Source: Sanghuangporus weigelae (lineage: Eukaryota > Basidiomycota > Agaricomycetes > Hymenochaetales > Hymenochaetaceae). From it: 64,000 nt of DNA. Location: contig CP137318.1 of NCBI GenBank assembly GCA_033182465.1, positions 62,001-126,000 of the forward strand. The letters are read 5' to 3'. The position numbers were made by a program, and so were the translations under genes. Positions 4,166 to 54,834 of the stretch are shown here, in pieces; the first letter of the stretch is position 1; each line of letters opens with the position of its first letter. The notes below the pieces were generated by a model. The model was not told the origin of the DNA and ran no database searches. It was given only the letters and a program-made list of their open reading frames with translations.

Positions 4166-6127
4166 TCATACAGCATCAGGGCCCGAGGCCGATGTCTCGG
4201 TAATTGTGGGAAGAGCAAAAGAGATGACCGTGGGTTTAGCTTTGGCGTCCTTCTTCTCGAGTTCGTCCTCGTCAAGCTGAGTAGTGAATTGAGTTGTTCG
4301 GAAATAGTCCGACGGTTCCGTGCTGGTCGTCATAGTGCTCGTTTCAGAATCTTTTTCTCGCTTCAGGAAACGACGGGGAGAGAAGCGTAGACCCGATATA
4401 TGCGCCATTTCGATTTCCGTATCGTTCACTCCCGCGTTCGCGTAGGCCAAGCTGCGGAGATTCAAGAGCATGCGAGAGCCCTGATGATCTCTTCGTTAGT
4501 TTTGGGATATCGAAGAAAAAGGGCAGTCGAGACGTACCGCTATACACCCAGCTGTATTCACTGGAGTGACGAAGAGACTCGATAGGAAAGGCGGCGCATA
4601 TTCGAAGACGAAAAGATTCACAAAAAGTAGTGCAAACACACTACAGAAATGAACCCGGATTCAATTAGTCTGTATCCAGTCAGCGGTAATTGGGGGAACG
4701 CACATAGCAAAATATACTGTTGAATCTCGAGCCATGAGGATCAAGGCCGGCGGAACGCCCATGTTATCGCGAGACCAAACGATTACTCGCCACACGACCA
4801 AAACAAATAACGTGCCTGATGCATTTCAATGCCATGCCCATCAATAGAGTTTGGTACATCAACTGTGGAAATCACCCACTTTCTATTATGGTCGGCGCAA
4901 TCCAATATCCGGCGATAATACTCGGCACACTGGCTGCGTAGCATCCAGGAAGTGCGGTGAAATCCTGCACGACTTCACGGATTTTACTAACGAATTGAAG
5001 GAAATGAGTCAAGTTTTCACGTACTGAGGACTTCTTCTCCCACGTAGTCCTTTATGGTCAAGCCAACCAGGGTGATGGTGCCACCTGATGGATATCAGCT
5101 AAAGCTTCGATGGAGACGAGCTAAAGATAGCTCACCTACGTATAAGAAACTAGCGACAGTCATAACCGGCTGGTCCAAATGTTAGAAACACAAGCAGTTG
5201 ACGTGAAATACGTGTACGAACAATATTATCTCGATCTTAGCAGTAAGTCAGTCGCTACCTACAATAAAATCTTCCAACGTGTAAAACTCACAGAGCGCTA
5301 TCACCCTGGAAAGTAAAATTCCTGGAGACTTGTTGAGCGAGCATTAGTCTAGAGCTGAGAGGTCTGCTGACCTTCCACCACGAAGTTGGTGACGGTGATA
5401 ACACTGAACTAGCCAATGAACATTATCATGAAAATTTTTATGCAACAAAAGAGAGCTTACACGACCAGCCATCGCAAGTAAAACACGCAGCTGCGAGTAT
5501 GTGGCCGGCTTTCAATTAATTTGCATAATATCCACAGTACCGGAGCACGTACAACTAGTGACAATCGTAGGTCAAATTTTATGAAAGTTCAGAAAGAACA
5601 AGAACTTACGCCGGGTGAAAGATGATTCCTCGTGGAGGCTACAGTGACGTGCTATTTTAGCTTGCATTTTCAGAAGGTCGCTCTAGCGGGCTTGCCTATT
5701 CCATTAAAACTGAAATATATCGTCAGTAAAGTCCGAAAGTATTGGGGTTCTTTGACATACACCAGCATTGGAAGAACGACATATCGATTGAGAAAGAAGA
5801 GGATTTTTGGGACAGACAACCGGGCGCTATTGGTCAATTCAGCGTTTCCCTTACCACGAACACAAGGCCAGATACTCACGGCCACATGCGCCGAATCTAA
5901 CACGTGGAACAAATGGTCAAATTCTTCCGCTTCAGACGGGTACATTTTCTCGAACCTTACCTCCTCGCCCACAGTGATCCAGTAGTCGTACAAAACAGTT
6001 GTAGCACAGACAGCTAAAACGCATCTAATGTTAGCATCATCAATATCATCAGGCAAACGAAGTGCAGCGCACCAGTTACATAAGCCACTGCGTATGACTG
6101 CCGGGCCATCTCGAGTTCGTCCGACAT
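4166..6127 (-). CDS. DUF6533 multi-pass membrane protein, copy 1
   Basis: This many-exon gene on the minus strand starts at the ATG at 6125-6127 (MSDELEMARQSYAVAYVT). Exons then encode VCATTVLYDYWITVGEE, then IRRMWP, then SVPKILFFLNRYVVLPML; the YDY...E...W...PK..F..NRY pattern is the DUF6533 signature of basidiomycete membrane proteins. Later small exons (about 5500-4600) encode hydrophobic segments. The last exon begins MLLNLRSLAYANAG and ends in a polar, Ser/Thr-rich cytosolic tail with stop at 4166. About seven membrane helices are expected from the family. Function is unknown. The N-terminus and intron positions match the two paralogs at 37.1 and 39.4 kb. The middle exons (about 4600-5600) were not resolved base by base. 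Confidence 0.75.
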
Positions 6128-11865: not shown

Positions 11866-16120
<4,255 letters not shown>

Positions 16121-18059: not shown

Positions 18060-21000
18060 TCATCTAGAAGCACGAGCCGCAAGAGCGGCGAGCTCGTCGT
18101 CGTACGAAGGTAGAGGCTCCCCGAACATAGCTCGTTCTTCTCTAATCCTCTCGATCTCTCTTCGAATGTTATCCATCTCAAAAAGGATCTCATTCTGCTG
18201 CAATCCAATTCTCGATAGAGCATGCGAGCGTATAATTTCGCTCTGGCCATCCGGGGTCACCGATGTGTTTCTGTTGACTCTGGTCTCCCTCATCTCTCTT
18301 CCGAGTTTCGTCTCTGCCACATGTTGTGCGTGGATAGCAACGACATCTGCGCTTCCAGAACTCGATGGTGGGTAGGAGTTATCAGTGCCACTCGCTTGCA
18401 ACGAATATTGATATGGCACGGCGCGTAATTGCTGCGTTTCACTATCCACAGACGAAGTTGAGGGCTGAATAACGTCGCCAGAACGAAGATTCATCTGCTG
18501 CATGGAATTTGCGGTGTAATCGACGTAGTATACTCCTTTCTGCTGTCGGACACGTCGGCGACGGAAGAAAAGCAGGAGCGCCGCGATGATCCCCAGACAC
18601 AGGAGTCCTCCGACAACCGCTCCGACTATGATTCCAATGTTAGACGATCCGGTTGAGTCTTCACCGTCTCCATTTCCGCCTCTGTTTTCTGAGAAGTCAA
18701 CTGGTCGTAAAGGAACGCTAAAGAATTGGTCACTATCTGAGCAGATTCCAGTCGGAGAAAGAGGCATACTTCAGTGCAAGAGGCGCGAACATCGCTCCTT
18801 GAGCTGGACTGTGGGTATCCAATGAATACTGTGCTTCACATAAATCGAGAAAGATAATATGCACCTGCTCTGTCCTGCGACCCAAGAGCCACTGTCCGCA
18901 TGGTACGAGATTGGGAACGGCAGGTTCTGATCGGAATTCGCAGAGCCATACTCCCAAACTTGTGATATCATCGCATCTCGAACTGTCGTATCAGACGCGC
19001 TGGAGGCAGCAAACAGCATCCAGTCTATGACGACGTTAGCCGAGCATGAAATTGAAACAGTGTATTCTTTTACCTGAACGAGTGATCGAAGACGCGTTGG
19101 AGCTATCTAAAGGGATTCCGTATTTCCATAACGCTGTTTCGTTGCGTATTAGTCTGGGAACTGGTCACGAGTAAGAAGCACATACACGTCTGTTGCTTGT
19201 AAAAGGACGTCTGCAAGCTGTATACCTTAAGGGACATCAGCAAACTGGAAGCAAATCGGAAGACAACGAGAGAGCTCACCGAACTGTCGATGAGATTGAG
19301 TTGCAGAAGTTTGTCTGCATAGAGGTTATAGATTAGCCCAGAAGAACCGGAGCCAAAGTTCAGGACAAGCTGATCCGATGCGGAAGCAAGATTGGTCCAT
19401 TGCTGGACATATTGCTTTGCGATCGTCTGTATCCGAACCATAAGCATCAATCTCGAGAAGAGGGCTATTAAGCGCACATCATAATTGCTCTGGTCGTCCG
19501 AGCGTCCCCCGTATTGGCTGATCTTTGCCATCGCTCCTATGCCGATGATCCCCTTGAGTATCAAGTTTGTTTGATTTGCTGAGGTGATCCCATCCGAACT
19601 CGATGTGGTTCTGAGTTTTGTGTCAAATAGTATTTCAGAAGGTCTGGTAATATGTACTCACTCGTCAACAGGGTTCATCGTGTTGTTGACAAGGTAATCC
19701 GCCCATCTATTCAAGAGACCATACTGGGTTGAAGATATATGAGTCCATCGGGAATGAAATATGACCGAATACTACATACGTGCTCGGCAAGGAGGCTCCC
19801 ATCACCAGTGGTCTGAGCATGTGCGAGACTCATGATCAGCATGTTCGCCGAGTCTGAAACGCGAATTCATTGCGGAGTCAGGCTTGGCTATAAGTATGTC
19901 CGTCAGAATACACACGTTCAATCTCCTGGTTATGTCCGTTGGGATTACCCGTAACGTTCGGGAATCGGCTGCCTACATGAAATCAGAACATAGCTATAAC
20001 TATTTGAAAGATCAGAGACAACGTACCAGCATCCTGAGCAGCAAATAAGTTTGTGTACTGGGGGCTCTCCTGATACTCCAAGAGCGGACTCAGAAGGTAA
20101 CCGAGAATATCAGGGTTAAGATAGAGGTAAATGGGCATGGCTGAGTATAGGACATCGACGGCGTTCACTCTATGTACGTCATGAATTTCTGTGGGACGAT
20201 AGACGGAACAGAGACCGGTCTTACCCTCCTGAACCGATGCCCCCCATGTCCTTTATGAAGGCCTTCACATCAGATGTGTTGAGGGCTCCATTTGCCTTCG
20301 AAAGGGTATATTCGAGAGCGCCCATTGCCTGACGTGTAGACAGGGACAAAATATCTCCGTAGTTGTTGGAGATTTTGCTTGCATCACCAAGGATCTGGTT
20401 GTCCAGAGAAACCGCTGTGGACAGAGCATCGACAGAATGGTTGACGACGTCCCCGATCTGAGAATTCTGACGGTAAGTAATAGGATTATCTCGGAGTGTA
20501 ATGAGACTGACAGCATCGTGGATGTTGGTAAACTGAGACCAATAATATGCACTTCGACCCTCAATCTGAGTCAATCTATTGGTGTATTGGATGACAGGAT
20601 CGCGGACAACTCCAAGAGCGAAGGCTATTGGTTCGCTGGTCGAGGACACGCTTCCGAGGTCTACTGAAAAGCTCAACGTGTTGAATGGACTGTAAAAGAC
20701 ATTCGTCAGTCAGGTTATTGCAGCCGCGCGAGGCAAACCCGGTACTGACTTCCCGACCGGGTGAGTTCCCGCTTGAGCTTGATCATTGAGACTAGTGCCA
20801 TTTGCAAAACCAGCTCGAATGTCATCGGCAGGCCCAATTTGCCAGGATACGCCTGTCGTCTGAAGAGAAGAGCGCAAGGATTTTTCAGTATGAAAAGCTT
20901 CAGCCATTGTATGTTTCTTGCCTTTTTAGCGCAGTAGTACACGGTTGCGTCCTGGGGTCTATCATCAATCTCCTGGAACGGGCCTGGAGACGTCAGACCC

Positions 21001-21769
21001 ATCTGCAAATAAACAAAATCGCTCGATTCATTTATCTGCCATTCTGATTCCAGCCCACTGTTCCCCGATATCCATTCTACAGACATAGATTATGGGCCAG
21101 TCTTTCTTGAAAAGTGAATGAATACGCACGTCCGGTCACATCGGAGTAAATCGTAATGTCGTGAGCGTTTCCATCAATCGAGTCCACTTCGAAGTACAGA
21201 TACGAAAATGGCAGAGACTGACGGACAATGTCTTTGGCCTAAAGGATACGCAGAACATCCAGCACTCAGACCAACAAATCCTCAAATGCAACTGACGAAA
21301 CATACTTCAATTGGACTCATGAAAGTCATGATGACGTTTACAAGACCAGCTTGCAAGACATATGACGACCGCGTCGGAGTGAATACAAATGATTGCTGGA
21401 TTGCGTTCACTAAAGGTGTATTTGTTGGCGGAACTCCTAACAACTGATACGGATTTCCATCGACGAGGATCGCCGCATCCCACCCCATGTCCTACAGCAT
21501 GGGTAAGCGAAGCAGCCATAATAACAAAGATCGCAAGTGACACTTACTGCACTGACGTCGCTCCATAATCTCGGGATGGCTTGATTCAAAGGAACTGAAC
21601 CAGTTGTGTTGAAACCTAAAGGTGCCCATGCATTGACGTAGGGAGATTTTACAGCGAGAGGTAGCGAGAATGGATTGAAAGGTGACGTTGTCCAGTTTCC
21701 CTGGGCCAGTACGAGAGTACTGAGAAAAAGCAAAGAAAGTAGAGCACAAAAGAGTGTGTGTGTCGACAT
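18060..21769 (-). CDS. GtaA-like membrane-anchored protein, copy A
   Basis: Spliced from a dozen or so exons, roughly 900-1000 residues. The signal peptide (MSTHTLFCALLSLLFLSTLV) is followed by the N-terminal GtaA/DUF5127 region (SPFNPFSLPLAVKSPYVNAW, MGWDAAILVDG, QSFVFTPTRSSYVLQAG). The DUF4965 six-hairpin region follows: SAYYWSQF, LSLSTRQAMGALEYTL, VNAVDVLYSAMPIYLYLNP, LILKGIIGIGAMAKISQYGG, GLIYNLYADKLLQLNL, then SPAQGAMFAPLALK. Aspergillus GtaA is an extracellular glutaminase; activity of this paralog is unproven. After the ectodomain come one helix (IIVGAVVGGLLCLGIIAALL), a basic stop, a Ser/Gln-rich tail, a coiled coil (NIRREIERIREERAMFG) and a terminal LPSYDDE. Several introns use the donor GTCAGT. 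It is divergent from peroxiredoxin-like copy 1. No lesion was seen. Confidence 0.82.
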
Positions 21770-22222
21770 TTAAAGCTGGAAGAGAGGATGAAAGAGTGGG
21801 ATGAAGATGCGAGGATTGACTGTAGCATCCCAGGCCCTTCGCTTCCCGTGAGATAGATGCTACACACAGCCTGAGCCTGGTAGCGTCAGCATGGCGAATC
21901 AAGAGAGATTTAAGAGAACAGAACGGGCGCATCAGACGTATGTGGCTAAAATCCCGGTAATAGCCGTCGCCAACTACGAGAACGAGACCAAAGCTCGGAT
22001 GTACCGATTCGCGTTCCTGCCATCATGATTCACGTTTCAATGGGCTCGCCTATCTAAGTACTACAGATGGGGAAGATCCAAACCAGTGGATTCCTGATGA
22101 AGTCGGCGAGGCGGCAACGACTCGGAGTGGGTTTGAAAGTGCTGATCGAAATTGAAGCGGAGTTTCAACAGTACAAGATTGACGATCAAATGGACGGACA
22201 CCCACTCATGTCATGAATAACC
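21770..22222. promoter_or_regulatory. shared divergent promoter region, module 1
   Basis: This 453-bp gap separates the ATG of GtaA-like copy A (minus) from the ATG of the peroxiredoxin-like gene (plus). Blocks of it, such as catgattcacgtttc near 22024 and ttcctgatgaagtcgg near 22090, recur in the matching gap of module 2 (near 27350 and 27414), with weaker traces in module 3. Constraint or recent duplication could both explain this. Confidence 0.5.
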
Positions 22223-23229
22223 ATGACGGATGCTGATGCTATTCATCCTACGAACATTCCATCCGCCGAAACAATTGAATTGGCATCTCATGTCAAAGTT
22301 TTAGACGGCAAAGGGAATCAGGTCCCATTTGGTGATCTCTTTGCATCGTCAAAAACTATCATTGTTTTCATCCGTAAGTGCTGTGCTTGATCGACCATGC
22401 TTATTGACGTCAATCATACTACACAGGTCACTTCTTTTGCGGGGTATCAATTCTGTTTGCCTGAGATTAAGCGATTACACTGACGTTGTAAATATTCTAG
22501 ACATGTCAAGTATGGCTCATAGCTCGAATCCTTGAATCAGCGCCTAATAACTTTCCTGTCCAGGCATATGTGTCGCGGCTCGCAGCAGTTCCAGGGACTA
22601 AGCTCGCCGAATCCAATGTCCAGCTGGTAATCATCGGGTGCGGTGAATGGGAACTTATAGATGACTACAAAAGTTTGTATGTTCGTGTACATCGCACGGG
22701 GCACTCACAGAGCTCTGCGCAAGAAAACACCGGTTTCACAGGAAATATATACGCCGACCCATCTCGGGAGCTATATCGCAAGCTTGGAATGATGACCGAA
22801 AACCTGAAGATAACTCCTACCGGACAAAAGAAGCGCAGTTACGTTCCTGAGACAGTGCCGAGCGTCTTGAAGAGTATCTGGGCAAGCGTTCTTCGTCCGA
22901 TGTAATTCCAATGAATCCCGCTGAGCTCCGCCGCGCAGAAAGGACCTATAACACATCCTCTTCAGCTTGGGAAACAGGGAAATATCTCCCAACTAGGTGG
23001 TGATTTTATATTCGGCCCAGGTAGGTTTACCGTTTTGATATTGGTTTCTGGCTTTGGTTCAAGCAGTTTCTAGGAAATACGTGCCACTTCACCCATCTAA
23101 TGGAGCATACAGAAGACCGTAAGATTAGATTTTTTTTCTGTTTTTCATTGCCCTTGACTCATTATTTAACTTTACCTAGATATCGAAGTCGTAGACCTAA
23201 TGAAAGAAGCTGGCGTAAAAATACAATAG
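22223..23229 (+). CDS. AAED1/PRXL2C-like peroxiredoxin-like protein, copy 1 (intact)
   Basis: Eight exons (22223-22373, 22427-22443, 22501-22509, 22564-22672, 22724-22881, 22939-23020, 23074-23118, 23180-23229) total exactly 207 codons, 206 residues. The protein belongs to the AhpC/TSA antioxidant-like thioredoxin-fold group. Landmarks: TIIVFIRHFFCGTCQAYVSRL with a CxxC redox pair (CGTC), VQLVIIGCGEW, GNIYADPSRELYRKLGM, the QLGGDFIFGPG loop typical of the family, then TCHFTHLMEHTED. Exon 3 is only 9 nt and supplies the second cysteine (T-C-Q). The intron at 22882-22938 is GC-AG. There is no signal peptide, so it is probably cytosolic. This is the only undamaged copy of the three here. Confidence 0.85.
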
Positions 23230-24118
23230 TTTATTGTGTTTTTGGCTTCAAATGTTTTGCACTCCTTCGTTTATAATTGTGAGAGCAGTCCACCAAACTA
23301 AGGGAAAATGGAGCGTCCTCGAACGCGTCACGCGCATGTACAGCATTTACAGAGGTATCTAAGCTACTCTGCAGTAAGGACGACGCGTAATTGCGTTGAA
23401 ATATCATCTGCTCGAAGCATGAACTGCAAGAGCAGCAATCTCAGCCTCCTCCTCGTAAGAAGGCAGAGGCTCCCCGAACATAGCTCGTTCCTCCCTAATC
23501 CTTGCGATCTCTCTGCGAATATCATCCATCTCAAAAAGGATTTCATTTTGTTGCAATCCAAGTCTTGATAGAGCATGTGAACGTATCATTTCGTTCTGGC
23601 CATCCGAAGTTACCGAAGTGAGCGTTTTGGTCCTGTTCTCCGTCATTGCACTTCCAGATTTGGTCTCTCCCAAATATTGTGTGCGTGCACCAGCGACTTC
23701 GGTATCTCCGGAGGACGATGGATATTGATATGGCACGGTGCGCAATTGTTGCGCTCCAGTATTTACCAACGAACTGAAGGGCTCAATGATGGAGTCAGAA
23801 GGAAGATTCGCCCGCTTTAGGGGATTTGTGTGGCCTTCGCGATTATGTGTCCCACTCTTCTGTCGTCGACGTCGACGATATAAGAAAAATAGGAAGATCG
23901 CGATGATCCCTAGACCCGTGAGTCCTCCGACAACCGCTCCGACTATGATTCCTTTGTTGGACGATCCGTTTAGTTCTCCTCCGCCTCCACCTTCTTCCCT
24001 GTTTCCCGAGAATTCAACGGTTTGCAATGGAACGCTAAAGAATTGGTCACTGTCTGAACATTCTCTGACATGAAAAAGAATCTTACTTCAGTGCAAGAGG
24101 TGCGAACATCGCTCCTTG
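22606..24118. repeat. near-identical segmental duplicate, copy 1
   Basis: This 1.5-kb tract matches 27865-29377 at a constant offset of 5259 bp with no indel. By eye there are only about seven base differences. It covers the 3' half of peroxiredoxin-like copy 1, the convergent gap and the membrane-tail exons of GtaA-like copy B. Outside the tract identity falls and indels appear. Confidence 0.85.
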
Positions 24119-27091
24119 AGCCGGACTGTGGGTATCCAATGAATACCGTGTATCACACAAATCGAGTAAGGTAATATGCACCTGTTCTGTCCTGCGACCC
24201 CAGAACCATTGTCCGGATGGTACGAGATTGGAAACGGCAGATTCTGATTGGAATTCACAGAGCCATACTCCCAGACTTGTGATATCATTGCATCTCGAAC
24301 TGTCGTATCAGACGCGCTGGAGGCAGCGAACAGCATCCAGTCTAGGATGACGTTAGTCGAGCATGAAATTAAAGCACTTTAATCTTTTACCTGAACGAGT
24401 AATCGAAGACACATTGGAGTTATCCAGAGGAATCCCGTATTTCCTTAACACTGTTAAGCTACGTATCAGTCCGGGAAACGGTCACGAGTAAGAAGCACAT
24501 ACGCGTTTGTTTCTTGTAAAAGGCCGTCTGCAATTTGTATACCTTAAGGGACATCAGTAAACTAGAAGCAAATCGAAAGAAAACCAAAGAGCTCACCGAA
24601 CTGTCGATGAGGTTCAGCTGTAGAAGTTTGTCCGCATACAAATTGTAAATTAGCCCAGAAGAACCGGATCCAAAGTTCAGGACAAGCTGGTCCGATGCAG
24701 AAGCAAGATTGGTCCATTGCTGGACATATTGCTTTGCAATCCCCTACATTGGGCGTCATAAGCATCAGTCACGGCACATCGTGAGAAGACAAATCAAGCG
24801 CACATCATATCTGCTTTGGTCGTCCGAGCATCCCCCGTATTGGCTGATCTTTGCCATCGCTCCTATTCCTATGATCCCCTTGAGTATCAAATTTGTTTGA
24901 TTTGTTGAGGTAATCACATCAGAAGTCGATGTCGTTCTGAGTTTCGTGTCAAATAGTATTTCAAAAGGTCTGGTAATATGGACTTACTCGCCAACAGGGT
25001 TCATTGTGTTGTTGACAAGGTAACCTGCCCAACTGTTCAAGAGACCATACTGGGTGGATGACATGTGAGTCCATTGAGAATGAAGTATGACCGAATACTA
25101 CATACGTGCTGGGCAAGGAGGCTTCCATCACCAGTGGCCTGAGCATGTGCGAGACTCATGATCAGCATGCTCGCTGAGTCTGGAACGCGAATCAGTTTGG
25201 GAGTCAGTCGTAGCTATAAGTACATCCGTCAGGGTACATACGTTCAATCTTTTGGCTGTGTCCATCGGGATTACCTGTAGCGTTCGGGAATCGGCTGCCT
25301 ACTTGAAATTAGAACATAGCTATAACTATCTGAAAGATCAGAGACAACATACCAGAATCTTGAGCAGCGTATGAGTTTGTGTACTGAGGGCTCTCCTGAT
25401 ACTCCAAGAGCGGACTCAGAAGATAACCGAGAATATCAGGATTTAGATAGAGGTAGATGGGCATGGCTGAGTATAGGACATCAACTGCGTTCACTCTATG
25501 TACGTCATGAATTTCTGTGGGACGATAGACGAAACAAAGATCGGCCTTACCCTCCAGAACCAATGCCTCCCATGTCTTTCATGAATACCTTCACATCGGA
25601 TGTGTTGAGGACTCCATTTGCCTTCGAAAGGGTATATTCGAGAGCGCCCATTGCCTGACGTGTAGACAAAGACAAAATATCTCCGTAGTTGTTGGAGATT
25701 TTTCCTGCATCACTAAGTATCTGGTTGTCCAAAGAAATGGCTGTGGATAGAGCATCGACAGAGTGGTTGACGACGTCCCCGATCTGAGAATTCTTGTGTC
25801 AATTCATAGTACTATCTGGAATCATTGCAACGGGACTGACGACATCTTGAATATTGGTGAATTGAGACCAATAATATGCACTCCGTTCCTCAATCTGAGT
25901 TAATCTGTTGGTGTATTGGATGACAGGATTGCGGACAACTCCAAGAGCGAATGCTATTGGTTCACTGGTCGAGGACACGCTTCCGAGGTCTACTGAAAAG
26001 CTCAGTATGTTGAATGGGCTGTCAGAGGCATTCGTCAGTCTGATTATTGCAGCTGTTCGGGGCAAACCTGGTACTGACGGCCCGACCCGGTGAGTTCCCA
26101 CTTGAGCTTGATCAGTGAGACCAGTGCTATTTGCGAAATCAGCTTGAATGTCACCATCAGGTCCAATTTGCCAGGATACTCCGGTCGTCTGTAGACAAGA
26201 GCACCGGGAGTTTTCAAAATGAAAAGCTTCAGACATTGTAAATTACTTGCCTTTTTAGTGCAGTAGTATACGGTTGCATCTTGGGGTCTATCACGGATCT
26301 CCTGGTACGGTCCTGGAGACGTCAGACCCATCTGCAAATAAACAAAATCGCTCGATTCATTTATCTGCCATTCTGATTCCAGCCCATTGTCTCCCGATAT
26401 CCATTCTACAGACATAGATTATGGGCCAGTCTTTCTCAAAGGTGAATGAATACGCACCTCCAGTCACATCGGAGCGAATCCTAATGTTGTGAGCGTTTCC
26501 GTCAATTGATTCGACTTCGAAATACAGATACGAAAATGGCAGAGATTGACGGACAATGTCTTTGGCCTAAAGGATACGCAGAACATCCAGCACTCAGACC
26601 AACAAATCCTCAACTACAACTAACGAAGCATACTTCAATTGGACTCATGAAGGTCATGGTGACGTTTACAAGACCAGCTTGTAAGACATATGACGACCTC
26701 GTCGGAGTGAATACAAATGATTGCTGAATTGCGTTCACCGTATTTGCTGGTGGCTCTCCTAACAGCTGATACGGGGTTCCGTCAACGAGGATTGCCGCAA
26801 CCCATCCCATGTGCTAGCACATGGGTCAGCAAAGCAGCCATAACGGCAAAAATCGCGAGTGATGCTTACTGCATTGACGTCGCTCCATAATTTCGGGAGG
26901 GCTTGACTCAAAGGAGCTGAACCTGTTGTATTGAAACCTAAAGGTGCCCATGCGTTGACGTAGGGAGATTTCACAGCGAGAGGTAGAGAGAATGGATTGA
27001 AAGGTGACGTTGACCAGTTACCCTGAGCCAATACGAGACTACTGAGAAAAAGCAAAGAAAGTAGAGCACAAAACAGTGTGTGCGTGGACAT
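23404..27091 (-). CDS. GtaA-like membrane-anchored protein, copy B
   Basis: Same architecture and exon layout as copy A. Signal peptide MSTHTLFCALLSLLFLSSLV starts at the ATG at 27089-27091. Then come PFNPFSLPLAVKSPYVNAW, WVAAILVDGTPYQLLG (shorter here than in copy A by a few residues), QSFVFTPTRSSYVLQAG, LSLSTRQAMGALEYTLSKAN, VNAVDVLYSAMPIYLYLNP and IIGIGAMAKISQYGG. The tail has IIVGAVVGGLTGLGIIAIFL, an Arg-rich stop, a Ser-rich segment, DIRREIARIREERAMFG and LPSYEEE near the end. Its 3' part lies inside the 1.5-kb tract shared with copy C, so its tail differs from that of copy C by only about one residue although the ectodomains differ more. No frameshift was seen. Biochemical activity is inferred from the GtaA family. 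Confidence 0.82.
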
Positions 27092-27502
27092 TTAAGGCCA
27101 GAAGAGAGATGATGAAAGAGTGGAATGAAGATGCGGGGCTTGACTGTGGCATCCCAGGTCCTTCGCTTCTCGTGAGATAGATGCTATACACAGCCTGGTA
27201 GCATCAGCATGTCGAATCAAGAGCGAGTTAAGAGAACAGAGCGGGCGCATCAGACGTATGTGGCTAAGGTCCTGGGAAATAGCCGACGCCAACACTATGA
27301 GAACGAGACCAAAGCTCGGATGTATTGAGTCGTGCCCTTTCGACATCATGATTCACGTTTCGAGGGACTCGCTTATCTGCTACAGATGGAGAAGATCCAA
27401 ATCAGTGGATGGATTCCTGATGAAGTCGGCGGACTGGATCGCAATTAAAGCGGAGTTTCAACAGTACACATATGACGATCAAGCACTGACACCTTCACAA
27501 CC
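27092..27502. promoter_or_regulatory. shared divergent promoter region, module 2
   Basis: This lies between the ATG of copy B and the ATG of peroxiredoxin-like copy 2. It is similar to 21770-22222 with several deletions. Confidence 0.45.
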
Positions 27503-28488
27503 ATGACGGATACTGATGCTACTCACGTTCCATCTGCCGAAACAATTGAGCTGGCATCTCGTGTCAAAGTTCCCATTTGGTGATCTCTTTGCATTGTCAA
27601 AGACTATCATTGTTTTCATCCGTCAGTGTTGTGCTTGATCGACCATGCTTATTGACATCAATTATACTCACGGCGGCACAGGTCACTTCTTTTGCGGGGT
27701 ATCACTTCTGTTCGCCTGAAATTAAGCGATTCATTCCACTGACATTGCAAATATTCTAGACATGCCAAGTACGATTCATAGCTCGAATCCTTGAATCAGC
27801 GCCTAATAACCTTCCTGTCCAGGCATATGTGCCGCAGCTCGCAGCAGTTCCAGGGACCAAGTTTGCCGAATCCAATGTCCAGCTGGTAATCATCGGGTGC
27901 GGTGAATGGGAACTTATAGATGACTACAAAAGTTTGTATGTTCGTGTACATCGCACGGGGCACTCACAGAGCTCTGCGCAAGAAAACACCGGTTTCACAG
28001 GAAATATATACGCCGACCCATCTCGGGAGCACTATCGCAAGCTTGGAATGACGACCGAAAACCTGAAGACAACTCCTACCGGACAAAGGAAGCGCAGTTA
28101 CGTTCCTGAGACAGTGCCGAGCGTCTTGAAGAGTATCTGGGCAAGCGTTCTTCGTCCGATGTAATTCCAATGAATCCCGCTGAGCTCCGCCGCGCAGAAA
28201 GGACCTATAACACATCCTCTTCAGCTTGGGAAACAGGGAAATATCTCCCAACTAGGTGGTGATTTTATATTCGGCCCAGGTAGGTTTACCGTTTTGATAT
28301 TGGTTTCTGGCTTTGGTTCAAGCAGTTTCTAGGAAATACGTGCCACTTCACCCATCTAATGGAGCATACAGAAGACCGTAAGATTAGATTTTTTTTCTGT
28401 TTTTCATTGCCCTTGACTCATTATTTAACTTTACCTAGATATCGAAGTCGTAGACCTAATGAAAGAAGCTGGCGTAAAAATACAATAG
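27503..28488 (+). pseudogene. AAED1/PRXL2C-like, copy 2, frameshifted
   Basis: It starts like copy 1 (MTDTDATHVPSAETIELASR). Relative to copy 1 it lacks 23 bp right after the sequence gtcaaagtt (about 27572). The loss shifts the frame and brings a TGA within a few codons. Downstream exons, including the 9-nt micro-exon (here ACATGCCAA), the GC-AG intron and the last exon ending at 28488, are intact and, from about 27865 on, almost identical to copy 1. No obvious in-frame ATG rescues the N-terminal strand and CxxC, so this is most likely a recently dead gene. Confidence 0.8.
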
Positions 28489-29377
28489 TTTATTGTGTTT
28501 TTGGCTTCAAATGTTTTGCACTCCTTCGTTTATAATTGTGAGAGCAGTCCACCAAACTAAGGGAAAATGGAGCGTCCTCGAACGCGTCACGCGCATGTAC
28601 AGCATTTACAGAGGTATCTAAGCTACTCTGCAGTAAGGACGACGCGTAATTGCGTTGAAATATCATCTGCTCGAAGCATGAACTGCAAGAGCAGCAATCT
28701 CAGCCTCCTCCTCGTAAGAAGGCAGAGGCTCCCCGAACATAGCTCGTTCCTCCCTAATCCTTGCGATCTCTCTGCGAATATCATCCATCTCAAAAAGGAT
28801 TTCATTTTGTTGCAATCCAAGTCTTGATAGAGCATGTGAACGTATCATTTCGTTCTGGCCATCCGAAGTTACCGAAGTGAGCGTTTTGGTCCTGTTCTCC
28901 GTCATTGCACTTCCAGATTTGGTCTCTCCCAAATATTGTGTGCGTGCACCAGCGACTTCGGTATCTCCGGAGGACGATGGATATTGATATGGCACGGTGC
29001 GCAATTGTTGCGCTTCAGTATTTACCAACGAACTGAAGGGCTCAATGATGGAGTCAGAAGGAAGATTCGCCCGCTTTAGGGGATTTGTGTGGCCTTCGCG
29101 ATTATGTGTCCCACTCTTCTGTCGTCGACGTCGACGATATAAGAAAAATAGGAAGATCGCGATGATCCCTAGACCCGTGAGTCCTCCGACAACCGCTCCG
29201 ACTATGATTCCTTTGTTGGACGATCCGTTTAGTTCTCCTCCGCCTCCACCTTCTTCCCTGTTTCCCGAGAATTCAACGGTTTGCAACGGAACGCTAAAGA
29301 ATTGGTCACTGTCTGAACATTCTCTGACATGAAAAAGAATCTTACTTCAGTGCAAGAGGTGCGAACATCGCTCCTTG
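27865..29377. repeat. near-identical segmental duplicate, copy 2
   Basis: Partner of 22606-24118. It carries the 3' half of peroxiredoxin-like copy 2 and the tail exons of GtaA-like copy C. The right edge is sharp: after gctccttg the two copies diverge at once, inside the exon encoding PAQGAMFAPLAL. Confidence 0.85.
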
Positions 29378-32331
29378 GGCAGGGCTAAAGATATCATTCA
29401 ATAAAGTACTACAGCAACTGAAAAGGGTGAGGGACACCTATTCTGCCCCGCAATCCAAGAACCACTATCCGGATGGTACGAGATCGAGAACGGCAGGTTC
29501 TGATCGGAATTTACAGAGGCATACTCCCAAACTTGCGATATCATTGCATCTCGAACTGTCGTATCGGACACACTGGAGGCAGCGAAGAGCATCCAGTCTA
29601 TGAAGACATTAGTTGCGCATGAAATGAAAACACTTTAATCTCTTACCTGAACGAGTGATCGAAGACGCGTTGGAGCTATCTAAAGGGATTCCGTATTTCC
29701 ATCTCGCTGTTTTGTTGCGTATCAGTCTGCGAACCGATCACGAGTAAGAAGGGCATACTGTCTGCTGTCTATTGCTTGTAAAAGGATGTCTGCAAGCTGT
29801 ATATCTTAAGGGACATCAGCAAACTAGAAGCAAATCGAAAGACAATGAGCTGAGAGCTCACCGAACTGTCGATGAGGTTGAGCTGCAACGGTTTGTCCGC
29901 ATACAAATTGTAAATTAGCCCAGAAGAACCGGAGCCAAAGTTCAGGACAAGCTGATCCGATGAGGAAGCAAGACTGGTCCATTGCTGGACATATTGCTTT
30001 GCAATCCCCTACATCGGGCGTCATAAGCATCAATCACAGCACATCGTGAGAAGACATTCGAGCGCACGTCATATCTGCTTTGGTCGTCCGAGCGTCCCCC
30101 GTATTGGCTGATCTTTGCCATCGCCCCTATTCCGATGATTCCCTTGAGTATCAAGTTTGTCTGATTCGTCGAGGTAATCCCATCCGAACTCGATGTCGTT
30201 CTGACGCTGGCGTCAGATAACACTTCAAAAGATCCGGTTATATACTTACTCGTCGACGGGATTCATCGTGTTGTTGATCAGGTAACCTGCCCAACTATTC
30301 AAAAGACCATACTGGGTGGAAGATAAATGAGGCCTTTAGAAATGAACTGCGCTCTAATACAACATACGTGACGAGCAAGGAGGCTACCATCACCAGTGGC
30401 CTGAGCATGTGCGAGACTCATGATCAGCATGTTCGCCGAGTCTAGAACGCGAATTCATTCGAGAGTCAGTCGCAGCTATAAGTACATCCGTCAGGATACA
30501 TACGTTCAATCTTTTGATCGTGTCCGTTGGGATTACCTGTAGCATTCGGGAATTGACTGCCTACATGAAATCAGAATATAACCATGACTATCTGAAAGGT
30601 CAAAGACAACGTACCAGCATCCTGAACAGCATACGAGTTTGTGTATTGAGGGCTCTCCTGATACTCCAAGAGCGGACTCAGAAGATAACCGAGAATATCA
30701 GGATTTAGATAGAGGTAGATGGGCATGGCTGAGTATAGGACATCAACTGCGTTCACTCTATGTACGTCATGAATTTCTGTGGGACGATAGACAGAGCAGA
30801 AACTGGGCTTACCCTCCTGAACCGATGCCTCCCATGTCTTTCATGAATACCTTCACATCGGATGTGTTGAGGACTCCATTGACCTTCGGCAGGGTATATT
30901 CGAGAGCACTCATCGCCTGGCGTGTAGACAACGATAAAATGTCTCCATAGTTGCTGGAGACCTGCCCTGCATCAGCAAGTATCTGGTTGTCCAAATAAAC
31001 TGCCGCTGATAGTGCATCATCGGTATGGTTGAGGACATCTCCGATCTGAGAACTCTGATGTCAATTAAAAGTACTATCTGGAATTATTGCAACGGGACTG
31101 ACGACATCTTGAATATTGGTGAATTGAGACCAATAATACGCACTCCGCTCCTCTATCCGAGTCAATCTGTTGGTATATTGGATGACAGGATCGCGGACGA
31201 CTCCAAGAGCGAATGCTATTGGTTCGCTGGTCGAGGACACGCTTCCGAGGTCTACTGAAAAGCTCAGCGTGTTGAATGGGCTGCGAATTGCATTCGTCAG
31301 AATCGGAGCAATAGCTTTTTGAGGCAACCGGCTCTGACTTATTAACAGGATGTGTTCCTACTTGAGCTTGATTATTGGGACCAGTGCCGTTTGCAAAGCT
31401 AATTCGAAGGTCGGCGGAGGGTCCAATTTGCCAGGATACACCGTTCGTCTACAAGAAAGAGAGCAAGGATATTATTAGTAAAAAATCTTGAGCGATTGTA
31501 GCTTCCTTACCTTTTTGATGCTATGATACACGGTTGCATCCTGAGGTCGGTCACTGATCTCCTGGTACGGACCGGAGGACATCAAGCTCATTTGCAAATA
31601 GACAAAGTCACTTGACTCGTTTATTTTCCACTCTGCTTCCAAATCGGGATCAACTGTAATCCATTCTACGAGCAGAGATTATGGGCCAGGCCTGTTCGAA
31701 GATGATTGGATGCTCACCTCCAGTCACATCGGAGTAAATCGCCACGTCATGAGTGTTCCCATCAATTGAATTGACCTCGAAGTACAGATACGAAAAAGGC
31801 ATCGACTGACGGACAAGATCTTTGGCCTAAATAGCAATCAGAAAAACGGAGCCTCAGTGGCAATTGACAGAAAGCACTTCAATAGGGCTCATGAGGGTCA
31901 TGGTAACATTTACCGGACCAGCTTGCAAGGCGCATGAGGATCGCGTTGGAGTAAAAACGAATGATTGCTGGATTGCACTCGGTAAAGCTGGCGCTTGGAG
32001 TCCCAGCAGCTGATACGGATTTCCGTCGATGAGGATGGCGGCATTCCATCCTAAAACCAAATTCAAAGCCGCAGATGAATGAGACAGTCATATTTACAAA
32101 GGCTGCAAACGACACATACAGGGTCGCTCCACAGTCTCGGGATAGCTGTACTCAAAGGAGCTGAACCTGTTGTGTTGAAACTAAAGGTGCCCATGCGTTG
32201 ACATAGGGAGATTTTACAGCGAGGGGTAGCGAGAATGGATTGAAAGGCGATGTCGTCCAGTTTCCCTGAGACAGAGCGAGAGTGCCAAGACACAATAAAA
32301 GAAGAGCGCAAAAGGGAATGTGTGCCAGCAT
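28663..32331 (-). pseudogene. GtaA-like, copy C, 1-bp frameshift in exon 1
   Basis: The layout equals copies A and B: signal peptide from the ATG at 32329-32331 (MLAHIPFCALLLLCLGTLAL), then PFNPFSLPLAVKSPYVNAWA. At 32180/32181 one base is missing relative to copies A and B (plus strand gaaactaaag instead of gaaacctaaag). The frame shifts after the codons for WAPL and reaches a TGA ten codons on. The rest looks undamaged: WNAAILIDGNPYQLLG, QSFVFTPTRSSCALQAG, LSLSTRQAMSALEYTL, VNAVDVLYSAMPIYLYLNP, the membrane helix and the LPSYEEE tail. It is therefore either a very young pseudogene or a sequencing error. The tail is nearly identical to that of copy B. Confidence 0.7.
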
Positions 32332-32918
32332 TGGAGATTTCGGGGGAGTGTATGAGAGAATGATAGGCGGGAAGGCATGAAAAGACAGTTAGATGGATGC
32401 AGAAATCACTTTGCATCCCGTGAGATAAATGTCATACAGGTAGTTCCTTCACAAGTCTTGACTCCCTTGACTACACACGTGTCGAGCAAAGAGGCAGCTG
32501 TGAACAGTGGCGCAGGATCCATGATGCCCTTCGCTTCTTGTGAGAGGGACGTTGAACATAGCCTGATAGGATCAGCATGGCAGTCTAAGAGTTTGGAACA
32601 GGATATCCAAGGGGACGTATCAGATGGCTTCGGCGACAATCTAAGAGAACGACTCTCATCAACTACGAGAACAAGACCAAAGTCACCCAAACCCGGACGT
32701 ATCAAGTTGCATCATGATATAGAAGACTAATGGTCCACTTGGGGACGGAGAACATCAAGAGCAAAGGATTCCTGATGAAATCGGTGAGCGTTGCGATCAA
32801 GGCCAGGAAGAAGTTCAGTTTGAAAGTGTTGATCACAGTTCAAGCGGAGCTTCAATAGTCCAGATACTGTACGGTCAGGTCAGGGTTATCAACGTTAAGT
32901 TGTCCCCTTGAAACAACC
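32332..32918. other. divergent gap of module 3
   Basis: Matches the module 1 and 2 promoter gaps only in patches (for example attcctgatgaaatcgg near 32766). The frames at 32377-32730 and 32406-32705 have no recognisable domain. Confidence 0.45.
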
Positions 32919-33883
32919 ATGACGGGTACTCATATTATGAAAACCCCATCGACTGAAATGTATGTTTGAGGCAGTGATAGGTACAAGCGCTCTTTGGTGA
33001 TCTCTTCTCATCGTCAAAGACTATTATTATATTCATCCATGAGTTCTATGCCGGCTTTGTCTGCCGCTCTTATTGCTTTTAATTCTGCAATTATTGCATT
33101 GCTCAGGACTTTTTTTTGCAGTATATAAGCTCTATTCTCTTGATATCAGGGAAGGCTATTGATTTCTAGACATACCAAGTATGCCTAAGACCTTTGAATC
33201 AAATCCTATCTAACAACTTTCTTATTCAGACATGCATATCTCAGCTCGCAGCCGTCCCAAAGACTTCATTTTCAGGATCCAAGCTAAATCTGGCGATAAT
33301 CGGGTGTGGTGAATGGGAACTCATAGATGACTATAAAAGTGTGTCTGCTCGCGTACATATGCGAAACGCTCACGAAATCCTACGAAAGAAAGCACTGGTT
33401 TCACAAGAAATATATGTGCCGATCCATCTCGGGAGCGTTGTCACAATATTGGAATGACGACCGAAAACTTGAAGACAGCGTCTGCCGAGTAAATGAAGCG
33501 TAGTTACGTTCCCGGGACTGTGTCAAATGTCTTGAAGAGTAAGCCCCTTCGTCCGATGTAATCACAATGAATCCTGTTGAGTTCCGGGCAGAAAGGACCC
33601 ATAACAAATTCTCTTCGGCTTGGGGAGCAGGGAAATATCTCCCAACTAGGTGACGATACTCTATATTCGGCCCAGGTAGATTTACCGTTCTGATATTGGT
33701 TTCTGGCTTCTGTTCGAACAATTTCTGGGCAATACGTGCCACTTCGCCCAACTAATGGAACATACAGAAGACCGTAAGATTGATCGCCGCCTTAGGTCGA
33801 TGTTGATTCATTATTGTCATTACCGCATTTTGTTTAGATATCGAAGCTGCAGACCTAACGAAGAAGTGACATTAAAAGTGTAA
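32919..33883 (+). pseudogene. AAED1/PRXL2C-like, copy 3, degenerate
   Basis: It begins MTGTHIMKTPSTEM and meets a TGA after a few more codons. The N-terminal strand and the CxxC exons are scrambled. The middle part is still recognisable (LNLAIIGCGEWELIDDYKS at about 33287-33343), then the frame shifts before the YADPSRE region. TCHF...LMEHTED-like remains occur near 33737-33773. It ends near the position equivalent to the copy 1 stop. This is the most decayed of the three copies. Confidence 0.8.
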
Positions 33884-34027: not shown

Positions 34028-35994
34028 ATGGCAGCACCTGCAGGTCCAGGACTTCCTGTCCTGGTTATGAGTGAGTGAGCCGAGCGTCTTTGTCCATCCA
34101 GAGACCTCATCGAAGTTCTGTAGACACTGCACCGGAACGACAGTCTGGTCGAAAAGCCCAAATGTCGAACATAACGGCAGCAAAAGTGTGTTTCTAATCT
34201 CTACGTCTCGAAGAACTTTTCTAACTTGTCTTCAGACAGTTGCTGATGTCATCCGAACATGCCTTGGCCCTAAAGCAATGCTTAAAATGATCCTTGACCC
34301 GATGGGCGGTATTTTGTAGGTTCTCGTCTATCTAATCGAGTTCGTTTGCTGAGGAACATGCAAGGCTAACGAACGACGGAAACGCTATTCTACGAGAGAT
34401 AGAAGTCGCTCATCCAGCGGCAAAGAATATGATTGAACTTAGTCGGACACAAGATGAGGAATGCGGAGATGGAACAACGAGTGTCATCATTCTTGGTGCG
34501 TATTGTTCTTGTTTCAAACAGTGCATGTTTTAACAAGCATTGTCAGCCGGAGAAATCCTTGCGCATTCTCTGCTGCCACTGGAACGAAATACACATCCAG
34601 TCGTCATCATCTCCGCTTTCAACAAGGCCTTAAAAGAAGCGCTCGATGTAATCGACCGCATATCCATCCCCATCAATACGTCAAGTGACGACGACATGCT
34701 CGCACTGATCAAAACTTCCATCGGGACTAAGTTCGTCGTGCGTTGGTCTGATCTCATGTGCAAACTCGCGCTGCAAGCCGTCCGAACGGTCACACAAAGT
34801 GACGCAGGAGTAACCTCTGTAGACATCAAGCGATACGCTCGTGTGGAGAAGATACCCGGAGGCGAGATTGAGCAATCCTGCGTGTTGAGCGGTGTCATGC
34901 TCAACAAGGATGTTACACACCCCAAAATGCGCCGCCGGATTGAGAGGCCGAAAATTATTCTACTGGATTGCCCGTTAGAATACAAGAAGGGAGAAAGTCA
35001 GACGAATATCGAGATCGCGAGGGAAGAAGATTGGAATCGCGTGTTAGAAATTGAAGAAGAGCAGGTCAAGGCAATGTGCGAGAAGCTCGTCGAATTGAAA
35101 CCTGACCTTGTCTTTACCGAGAAAGGTATCTCGGATCTCGCTCAACATTACCTCCTAAAAGCGAATGTTACTGCAATTCGTCGAGTACGGAAATCGGATA
35201 ACAATCGTATTGCGCGGGCTGTTGGTGCAACCATCGTCAATCGCGTGGAAGACCTTCGCGAATCGGACGTAGGGACAAAATGCGGGTTGTTCTACATTGA
35301 CAAAATGGGTGACGAGTATTTCACGTTCCTTACTGAATGCGAGTCTCCAAAAGCGTGCACGATCCTGCTACGCGGTCCGTCAAAGGACATCCTTAACGAG
35401 ATTGATCGAAATCTTGCAGATGCGATGTCCGTTGCCCGAAATGCAGTGTTCAATCCACGTCTTGCACCAGGAGGCGGGGCGACAGAGATGGCGATTAGTG
35501 TGATCCTGCACCAGAAAGCGAGAAGTATCGTTGGCGTTGAGGGTCTACCATTCCGCGCTGTTGCCGATGCTATGGAGGTTATCCCGCGCACACTTGTACA
35601 GAATGCTGGTGGTAATGCAATTAGAGTGCTTACCGAGCTGAGGGTATATACGTTCGTTTTCGCAAGCAAACTTGTTTTACTCACCATCTGCCCATGTAGG
35701 CTAAGCATGTCGCTGGAGAACATTCCTGGGGTATCAATGGTGATACGGGCAAGATCGTCGACATGAAGTCTTATGGATTGTACGAGTCTGCCAGCGTCAA
35801 GGTATAATCAATATATTCTCTCCACTTAATCTACATTATCATCTAATCACTCTTCCGCTATCTCTCAGGTCCAAATTCTCAAAACTGCCATTGAGGCGGC
35901 ACGTATGCTTTTACGTGTCGACGATGTCGTGCAGGCTGTGCGCAAGGAGAGAGGCCAGCAGGAGCAGCCGGTCCCGGAAGAGATGCAGGAGTAA
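34028..35994 (+). CDS. CCT3: T-complex protein 1 subunit gamma (CCT3)
   Basis: Seven exons (34028-34070, 34124-34185, 34236-34315, 34365-34495, 34547-35643, 35700-35801, 35869-35994) total exactly 547 codons, 546 residues, the usual size. CCT3 is one of eight subunits of the TRiC/CCT chaperonin that folds actin, tubulin and WD-repeat proteins in the cytosol. Motifs: [32 protein letters not shown], the ATPase motif [22 protein letters not shown], the gamma-type [26 protein letters not shown] and the late GDTGKIVDM. The last exon carries [16 protein letters not shown] and a polar tail. It starts 144 bp after the end of the degenerate peroxiredoxin-like copy 3, so it marks the right border of the tandem array. 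Confidence 0.96.
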
Positions 35995-51099: not shown

Positions 51100-54000
51100 A
51101 TGCTTCATAATTTGCTCGTTTTTCTCCTTTTTTCCTTATGGCGCAGTGTCCTAGTTCGAGGTCAGGGGAACTGGACGACATCACCGTTCAACCCGACGGC
51201 GATGCCCCTTGCTGTAAAACACCCTTATGTCAATGCCTGGATGGCGTTGGGTTTGGGGACTACTGGATATTCCGCTCTGTACCAAGCATGGCCTAACACT
51301 TTTACTATGTCCAACGTAAGTGTTATTTGCGATTTTATTAACTCGGGCGTTCTAATTGAATGATATTTGAACAGATTCTGGGTTGGTATGCATCCGTCCG
51401 TGTGGATGGAGAGGCATACAGACTCATGGGAGATACAGGGATCCCGTCAACCACCGCGGTTCAACAGTCATTCGTTTTTACCCCGACTCGGTCATCTTAT
51501 ATCATGCAGGCTGGTCCCGTCAACGTGAACATGACCTTTTTAAGTCCCATTGAGGTGAGTGTATGGGATTAGTCGTCACACTCCGTCCTTTTCTTCATAA
51601 CGAAGAACTTTCTGCATCATATAGGCAACAGACTTGGTTCACCAGTCAACGCCATTCACATATTTGTACTTCACTGCCCAATCGACGGACGGGAATGAGC
51701 ACAACATCCAATTCTATTCGGATCTCTCTGGAGGTAAGCATGCAAAGCTCCGTATGTGATGCCCGTTCTCAGACCTTGGACTGTTTTCAGAGTGGATAAG
51801 TGGAAATACTGGATTGGAGTCGCAGTGGAAGATTAACGAGTCGAACAACTTCGTCTACCTGCAAATGAATCTTGTGACCTCGGGAGCGTATCAGGAGATA
51901 AACAATCGGCCGCAGGATGCAACTGTGTATCACTGCATGAAGAAGGTACATAGGCTTTTGTTCCACTGCGGATGATCTTTTCTGATCTCTCAATGACACT
52001 TTTGTCTTTTAGACGAACAGTGTTTCTTGGCAAATAGGACCAGCCGACGACATTCGAGGCCTCTTCGCAAACGGGACCGGTCTGAATAATCAAGCCCAGC
52101 AAGGAACCCATCCAGTTGATACGTGCGTTTTCTCTTTCTTAATCATCTGACTCGGCACTTCTAAGGCGTGGTCTGGCAGTCCTTTCAACACTCTAGGCAT
52201 CGCGGTTGACATCGGGTCAGTATCCTCAAGCAGTGAACCGGTCGCCTACGCTTTAGGTGTCGTTCGAGACCCAGCCATACGATACACCAACGAACTGGTG
52301 CAAATCGAAGAGCGGAGTTCATATTACTGGTCTCAGTTCACAAATATACACGATGTCGTGAGTGATATTCGCTTATCGTTGAGCCTGTGTTTTCCTACCT
52401 CTCGCCGACTGTAATATTAGATCGCAGAAGTTGTCCACCATTTCGACGACGCTCTGTCTGGGGCGATTTCCTTGGACAGTGAGATTCTTGGTGCTGCCGG
52501 CCAGATTTCTGGCAACTATGCAGACATTTTGTCTCTCTCCACGCGACAAGCTATGGGTGCTCTAGAGTATACACTTGTCAAGTCACACGGTTCGTTCAAT
52601 ACATCTGATGTGAAGGCGTTCATGAAGAATATGGGAAGCATCGGTTCTGGAGGGTAAGCTCGTTTCTAGTTCTCCATAGCACATCAGAGAACTGAGTGAC
52701 GCACACAGAGTGAATGCAGTTGACGTCCTGTATTCTGCCATGCCCATCTACCTGTATCTCAACCCTGCTATCCTCGGGTTTCTTTTGAGTCCTCTTTTGG
52801 ATTACCAAGAGAGTACTCAGTACACTAATCCATACGCCGCGCAAGGCCTTGGTACGCCGAATTAGTTATCATTTTACATTCACTATATTCATGTTCGTTC
52901 TTTTACAGGTGGTCCGTTCCCGAATGCTACAGGTAATCCTGACGGACACGACTACAAGGTTGAACGTATGTATCATGAGGAACATTCATACTGCAATGCA
53001 CGATGCTTAATACAGTCTCGCTTTAGAATCGGCGAATATGCTCATCATGAGTCTCGCACATGCACAAGCCTCTGGTGATGGAAGCCTTCTTGCTCAGCAC
53101 GTACGTAGCATTCCAGTCTTAACTTTTTACTGAGGATCTCATAAATCTTCTGTTTAGTATGGTCTCTTGAACAAATGGGCGGGTTACCTTGTCAACAACA
53201 CGATGAACCCCGGCGACGAGTGAGTCCATATATTACTGGACCTTCTGAGATACCATTTGACATGAACGTCAGGACTACGTCAAGCTCAGATGGCATTAGC
53301 TCGAATAATCAAACGAACTTGATACTCAAAGGAATTATCGGCATAGGAGCTATGGCAAAGATCAGTGAATACGGTGGATACTCAGACGACCAAAGTAGAT
53401 ATGACGTGCGCTCGATTTGTCTTCTCGCGTTGTACTGTGACTGATGCTTATGATGCCCGATATAGGGAATAGCAAAGCAATATGTCCAGCAATGGACCAA
53501 TCTTGCTTCCGCATCGGATCAGCTTGTCCTGAACTTTGGCTCCGGTTCTTCTGGGCTAATCTATAACCTCTATGCAGATAAACTTCTGCAACTCAACCTC
53601 ATCGACAGTTCGGTGAGCTCTCTCGTTATCTTCCGATTTGCTTCCAGTTTGCTGATGTCCCTTAAGGTATACAGCTTGCAGACGTCCTTTTACAAGCAAC
53701 AAACGTGTATGCTCTTCTTATCCGTAACCATCTCCCAGACTAATACGCAGCTCAACAGCGTTATGGAAATACGGAATCCCTTTAGACAGCTCCAACGCGT
53801 CTTCGATCACTCGTTCAGGTAAAAGACAAAAGTTTTTAATTTCATTCTCGACTAATGTCTTCCTAGACTGGATGCTGTTCGCTGCGTCTAGCGCGTCTGA
53901 TACGACAGTTCGAGATGCAATGATATCACAAGTTTGGGAGTATGTCTCTGTGAATTCCAATCAGAACCTGCCGTTTCCAATCTCGTACCATCCGGATAAT

Positions 54001-54834
54001 GGTTCTTGGGCCGCTGGTCAAAACAGGTGCGTTACTGTTCCAAACCGCTGTTGTATTTTGTTGACTACGTTTTGTAGTCCCGCCCAAGGAGCGATGTTCG
54101 CTCCTCTAGCTCTGAGGTATATCTTCTCTTATATAAGATGGTCGCTCAGACAGATAGTGACCGATTCCTATAGTGTGCCACTGAAATCTGTCAAATTCAC
54201 GGGAGGAGGCGGCTCGGGTGGTTCAAACAATACAGCTATCATCGTAGGAGCGATCGTCGGAGCTGTTGCGGGTCTGGGAATCATCGCCGCCCTTCTCTTT
54301 CTTTTTTATCGTCGCCGTCGACAGCAGCGAAAAGGAATTTACAATCGCACGGACCGTATTGAGCGCGTCAAGCCTTCAAATTTCCCTTCCGATTCCGTTC
54401 TCGAGCCGCTCAGCTCCACGATACACCCGGAAATGTACGACATGCGTGCCGTACCATATTCATCGCAAACGAACACCAGTGGAACATTCAATGCAAACGA
54501 TAGCACTCCAAATATGGTTACGTCTCATTCAACTAATTCCGCACCTTTCCACGTACGGAACCTGGCAGACGCAGAGTCGGGTCCGGTAGCGGATGCAGAT
54601 GGGTTGTCAGCTTTAGGTGGTGATTCCTCTACATTCGAAAGCTCCCGTCCTATGCCGGTGTCTCCACGATCACGTAACAAAAGCGCTGCACACCAAGATG
54701 AATTACGATCGGAGGTGGATAATCTTCGAAGAGAGATCGAGCGGATAAAGGAGGAACGAGCTGTGCTCGATGAAGCTCCACCTTCATATGATGAAGAGGT
54801 TGTCAATGCGCTCGGATCTCCTGTTGCAAGGTGA
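51100..54834 (+). CDS. GtaA-like membrane-anchored protein, copy D
   Basis: Plus-strand paralog, clearly closest to A-C. Signal peptide MLHNLLVFLLFSLWRSVLV, then SPFNPTAMPLAVKHPYVNAW, ILGWYASVRVDGEAYRLMG, QSFVFTPTRSSYIMQAG, ATDLVHQSTPFTYLYFTAQS, LSLSTRQAMGALEYTLVKS, VNAVDVLYSAMPIYLYLNP, IIGIGAMAKISEYGGYSDDQ and ASGLIYNLYADKLLQLN-like sequence. SPAQGAMFAPLALR precedes the tail. The tail has a Gly-rich linker, the helix AIIVGAIVGAVAGLGIIAAL, RRRRQQRKG, a polar segment, a coiled coil (DELRSEVDNLRREIERIKEE) and DEAPPSYDEE, a full PPxY motif. No frameshift was found. It is not paired with a peroxiredoxin-like gene. About a dozen introns lie at the same places as in copy A. Confidence 0.83.

Follow-up and report, generated by a model that had tools for sequence, protein, structure and literature searches.

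The window analyzed here, the 64,000 nucleotides of Sanghuangporus weigelae that make up C1:62001-126000 in a genome of 33.87 Mb and 13 contigs, contains three head-to-tail units of ~5.3 kb each across 18.1-33.9 kb. Every unit comprises a GtaA-like gene on the minus strand (termed G) and a peroxiredoxin-like gene of PF13911 on the plus strand (termed P), and the units and their genes are numbered 1 to 3. We consider it probable that the array was generated by local tandem duplication, with G under selection, P as a decaying passenger and a conversion-like tract of 1.5 kb, and that no functional link between the two genes is needed. The array is a real yet ordinary tandem duplication. The initial annotation of this region had proposed a functional link between G and P and named hitch-hiking by duplication as the simple alternative. 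It is the latter that we favor; the former is unsupported within this genome, because P is intact in one of the three units and 8 of the 11 GtaA-like loci are without P.

The gene models were built by hand from splice signals and alignment between the copies, and are based on the sequence only; the short introns and the gene families resemble those of a filamentous fungus. We found 25 repeat families in the region of 14-38 kb. Among the 20 families listed, three had two copies only. In the part that holds G, the spacings were 5317-5353 and 5243-5265 bases; in the part that holds P, they were 5248-5259 and 5396-5417 bases. The repeats recur at regular spacings and, therefore, the three tandem units are real, as the initial annotation had described them (a two-gene unit of ~5.3 kb repeated three times head to tail). 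The gene models likewise agree with the strands that had been given, G being on the minus strand and P on the plus strand in every unit. The likeness between the units was 75-100% in 200-base bins, far beyond chance. Duplication of a haplotype or in the assembly was considered as the cause of the array and rejected, as the bins outside the near-identical tract described below mostly differ by 5-25%. The divergent gap between G and P is 453 bases in unit 1 (21770..22222) and 411 bases in unit 2; a gap of ~450 bp had been described, which holds for unit 1 albeit unit 2 is shorter. The convergent gaps between P and the next G are both 174 bases, precisely the distance between stops noted before, and are identical to each other. 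The divergent gaps of units 1 and 2 aligned over 396 bases with an identity of 89.4%, compared with 87.3% for the coding sequences and 86.5% for the introns of G1 and G2.

G1 (18060..21769, minus strand) and G2 (23404..27091, minus strand) are intact, and hand splicing yielded 18 exons in each, encoding 921 and 910 aa, respectively, with one terminal stop. A TGA near 20708 was examined as a possible lesion of G1 and rejected, as the paralogue at 51100-54834 points to an intron there, with which G1 reads through. G3 (28663..32331, minus strand), judged from its reading frame, is a pseudogene copy of G: the loss of one base from exon 1 brings a stop into frame at codon 60, and exon 14 carries an in-frame TAG. 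No bias resembling repeat-induced point mutation was found among the 217 differences that are specific to G3 in exons 1-17 (79 C-to-T plus G-to-A changes and 78 changes in the reverse direction). G1 matched PF16335 GtaA_6_Hairpin with an E-value of 2e-100 (336.8 bits; gathering cut-off 24.9) and PF17168 DUF5127 with an E-value of 6e-61 (206.6 bits; gathering cut-off 28). With both Pfam domains above the gathering cut-offs, G1 belongs to the GtaA-like proteins, as initially proposed. The start of G1 appeared signal-peptide-like by eye, and a crude scan for transmembrane (TM) segments and PY motifs found a hydrophobic segment, then RRRR and a tail of ~160 residues with LPSY. By the same means, a signal-like start and a TM segment were evident in G and neither was in P1. 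The PY motif (LPxY/PPxY) is a ligand of Rsp5/Nedd4 ubiquitin ligases. We also observed a conserved RREIERIREER-like stretch followed by LPxY/PPxY in the tails at ~18100 (G1), ~23450 (G2), 54780 and 62260 of the window.

P1 (22223..23229, plus strand) is intact, and its 8 exons encode 206 aa with an FFCGTCQ motif; this predicted model, drawn by hand splicing and Pfam, depends on a GC-AG intron and on an exon of 9 bases. P1 matched PF13911 AhpC-TSA_2 above the cut-off (E-value of 6e-23, 81.9 bits; cut-off 27) and carries a CxxC motif (CGTC), by which it is assigned to AhpC-TSA_2. The peroxiredoxin-like identity of P was thus correctly recognized at first, albeit the 206-residue CxxC gene then assigned to every unit is encoded by P1 alone. 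P2 (27503..28488, plus strand), which was aligned to P1 throughout, has an exon 1 that is 23 bases shorter than that of P1 (near 27570). This deletion shifts the frame and, therefore, the first ATG yields 26 codons only. The second ATG, 13 bases downstream (27516), opens a 191-residue frame with a foreign N-terminus. P2 is damaged and yet not certainly silent, as the later ATG might still serve. P3 (32919..33883, plus strand) bears multiple lesions, by which it is a pseudogene copy of P. Its ATG reads 16 codons to a TGA, and in-register TGA and TAA occur at P1 positions 27 and 130. AT replaces GT at the first splice donor, 9 bases are missing across the fifth exon-intron border, 2 bases have been inserted, and the codon for the second cysteine of CxxC is altered. 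Altogether, G is whole in two of the three units and P in one. Both genes are whole in a single copy of the three, and G and P therefore look like co-copied neighbours rather than partners.

The comparison between G1 and G2 gave an overall synonymous divergence (dS) of 0.33, a nonsynonymous divergence (dN) of 0.096 and a dN/dS of 0.288. The ratio was 0.184 when the first 715 aligned codons were taken alone and 0.616 in the tail beyond them. In the first 715 codons, 89.5 of the 215 changes were nonsynonymous (tested as 89), whereas the share expected under neutrality is 0.77 (p-value of ~1e-28). G1 and G2 are clearly under purifying selection, and the ectodomain is strongly constrained. The corresponding test of P1 and P2 is weak and shows no clear purifying selection: of the 20 changes in their first 140 codons, a stretch that reaches into the near-identical tract, 12.5 were nonsynonymous (tested as 12), with a dN/dS of 0.50 and a p-value of 0.08. 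The dN/dS between P1 and P3 was 0.36 despite P3 being dead.

The near-identical tract spans 22606..24118, and its partner 5259 bases downstream, in units 2/3, spans 27865..29377. Only 7 mismatches were found in 1513 bases, while the adjoining 200-base bins are 84-93% identical. The tract runs from the 3' half of P through the convergent gap of 174 bases into G, where it covers exon 18 and most of exon 17. In exon 18, G2 and G3 are 99.7% identical, versus 77.5% between G1 and G2, and the identity between G2 and G3 is 71-96% in the 17 exons before the last. Ectopic gene conversion would be the simplest cause of such a tract.

These observations may also be read as an array kept because it raises the dosage of a surface protein or its diversity, in which the G copies diversify chiefly in the cytosolic tail and conversion moves the tails between them. 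The elevated dN/dS of the tail of G1 and G2 (0.62, compared with 0.18 in the 715 aligned codons before it), the last exon shared by G2 and G3 in the face of 17 more divergent ones, and the 11 GtaA-like loci, 9 of which are within C1:18-222 kb, are consistent with this idea. However, G3 is dead, so that the conversion tract serves no working G3, and the ratio in the tail may merely reflect relaxed constraint. We regard this explanation as unlikely.

In the preferred scenario of duplication with passenger decay, an ancestral segment with one G and a divergent P would have been duplicated twice in tandem, for which unequal crossing-over is presumably the simplest route. Selection would have retained G, of which two copies are intact with a constrained ectodomain, and P would have been carried along, leaving one intact and two decaying copies. 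P1 may have an ordinary role of its own in cytosolic thiol-redox chemistry. A later conversion-like event would have homogenised ~1.5 kb of neighbouring units. The G and P proteins are predicted to reside in different cellular compartments.

The adjacency of G and P was then assessed beyond the array. We detected 11 GtaA-like loci in this genome by PF17168 (29 rows), and the 49 rows of PF16335 fell on the same loci. They are located at ~18, 82, 88, 93, 114, 122, 127, 217, 222 and 2720 kb of C1 and at 3347 kb of C2. The PF13911 profile search of the genome returned three rows, namely P1, P2 and C7:788 kb. The P1 protein searched against the genome with E-values up to 10, a search that scores the best candidates only, gave 18 rows, none of which lay outside the array and C7:788 kb. 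The relative at C7:788 kb is distant from P1 (32-38% identity), unlinked and in a much longer frame; the region of C7:786500-790800 was seen to hold a long Pro/Ser-rich open frame running into the PF13911-like part. P neighbours three of the 11 GtaA-like loci, all within the array, and no P was found at the remaining eight among the best candidates of the P1 search. Within this genome, the adjacency does not extend past one array, nor are both genes intact in each unit. Three further GtaA-like genes are present in the window outside the array, namely 51100-54834 (plus strand), which is the nearest relative of the array by exon identity, ~57935-61600 (minus strand), and 62258-64000 and beyond (minus strand); the same search found no P relative near these three.

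Homologues of GtaA in prokaryotes were found in 11 plasmid records, with 80% or more of the query covered in 8 of them, and six loci were retrieved, the sixth of which carries no annotation. Among the five annotated loci, three have neighbours for polysaccharide degradation (GH92, GH76, GH125, SusD-like or arabinofuranosidase-domain genes), and the other two have different neighbour genes. In the gene table, which is incomplete, no peroxiredoxin-like gene is listed within 5 kb of any of the five. P1 had no match at an E-value of 1e-3 in 72,556 plasmid records. Two scans for relatives of GtaA in prokaryote genomes gave 33 and 82 pattern-matching stretches, none of which was confirmed. Among the publications listed, judged by titles and the beginnings of abstracts, none dealt with the G-P pair, which does not prove absence.

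A functional pairing of G and P under a shared bidirectional promoter (e.g., in a stress or nutrient response), with unit 1 working and units 2 and 3 redundant and decaying, would accord with the divergent layout, the 453-base gap with its counterpart in unit 2, and the whole genes of unit 1, but is very improbable against the absence of P from 8 of the 11 GtaA-like loci, the intact G2 beside a frameshifted P2, a gap whose conservation barely exceeds that of coding DNA (89% versus 87%), the different predicted compartments of the two proteins, and the incomplete gene table naming no such neighbour at any of the five annotated prokaryotic loci.

Several points count against duplication with a decaying P. 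P1 retains its open frame and CxxC, P2 might still be produced from the downstream ATG, and units 1 and 2 share the gap between G and P with an identity of 89%, slightly above the 87% of the G coding sequence. P1 and P2 lean to constraint in the first 140 codons (dN/dS of 0.50). With 0.089, their dS is much lower than that of G1 and G2 (0.33); either earlier conversion or constraint could have lowered it. Finally, the pair may still be conserved elsewhere in fungi, as the adjacency was assessed in this one fungal genome.

The GtaA family (PF17168 and PF16335) is named after the glutaminase A of Aspergillus. A single conventional member was found at C1:2719000-2721500 (hereafter C1:2720k), spliced to residue 585 only, which bears the motifs LKEISSNGNMNTVD, VEESGN and STDDF, KEISS being present. 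G1 aligned along its length with C1:2720k and six prokaryotic homologues, and KE, EE and TDDF are identical in all these seven conventional sequences (one fungal and six prokaryotic). In contrast, KD, IEH and SSSD were found in G1, and KD, IEH and STSD in G2, neither of which retains KE, EE or TDDF. KE is altered in all ten non-conventional loci, to KD in G1, G2 and G3 and to N in the remaining seven. An intact TDDF was seen neither in G3, nor in the five loci with a match covering the stretch, nor in the locus at 57.9-61.6 kb, C1:222k being covered in part. EE is not lost throughout, as C1:124k retains IEESAN. In a crude one-frame scan, a TM segment with a long tail was detected at 7 of the 11 loci and LPxY/PPxY at 6. 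The scan detected no TM segment with a long tail at C1:2720k, C1:18k or C1:222k, and the row at C2:3347k is short and probably spurious. G1 and G2 differ from the conventional GtaA in carrying a TM segment and a tail. In the search of solved structures, G1 gave four weak, chance-like rows and the conventional GtaA gave none.

According to excerpts of PMC9668830, a Phanerochaete member of the GtaA family was labelled by a glycosidase probe, its Streptomyces homologue had no glutaminase activity and a weak beta-galactosidase activity, and a glycoside hydrolase function was proposed for the family. The GH92, GH76, GH125 and SusD-like company of the bacterial GtaA-like genes appears to be in line with a glycosidase role. 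If the family is indeed one of glycoside hydrolases, the array's G proteins would be pseudo-hydrolases that selection maintains, and the lost acidic residues may have been catalytic. We tentatively envisage, as an idea that could well prove wrong, a fungal family of membrane-anchored pseudo-hydrolases at ~ten loci, with a six-hairpin ectodomain that has lost the conserved acidic residues and is under purifying selection, one TM segment and a cytosolic tail with a PY motif, acting as a surface sensor or binder, not an enzyme; P would be a passenger.

Repeated adjacency inside one tandem array is a poor ground for inferring a functional link, and G and P matter little as a gene pair; the GtaA-like family matters more. 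Genes that would be called 'glutaminase' here are without conserved acidic motifs of the family and yet selection retains at least G1 and G2, so that annotation by name would mislead. The membrane tail of G points to a non-enzymatic role that can be tested. As for the surroundings of the array, frames on the plus strand flank it on either side; the one at 34540-35766 may encode a subunit of a chaperonin (TCP-1/CCT) and the one at 12497-14524 a remodeller of the SNF2/ISWI type.

As compared with known systems, P1 is similar to the PRXL2 (FAM213)/SelL-like proteins of PF13911 in its Pfam match and CxxC motif; we assume AhpC-TSA_2, PRXL2 (FAM213) and SelL to be linked names. The similarity of P1 to these proteins is low. 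Its nearest solved chain is prostamide/prostaglandin F synthase (9us9; E-value of 2e-5), and the match to the SelL-related NF040769 is weak, at 76 bits under a cut-off of 120. Tandem segmental duplication with the decay of passenger genes and gene conversion is generally known. We saw nothing unusual in the array, which resembles that system in its head-to-tail arrangement, the unequal survival of its genes and a near-identical tract with diverged flanks.

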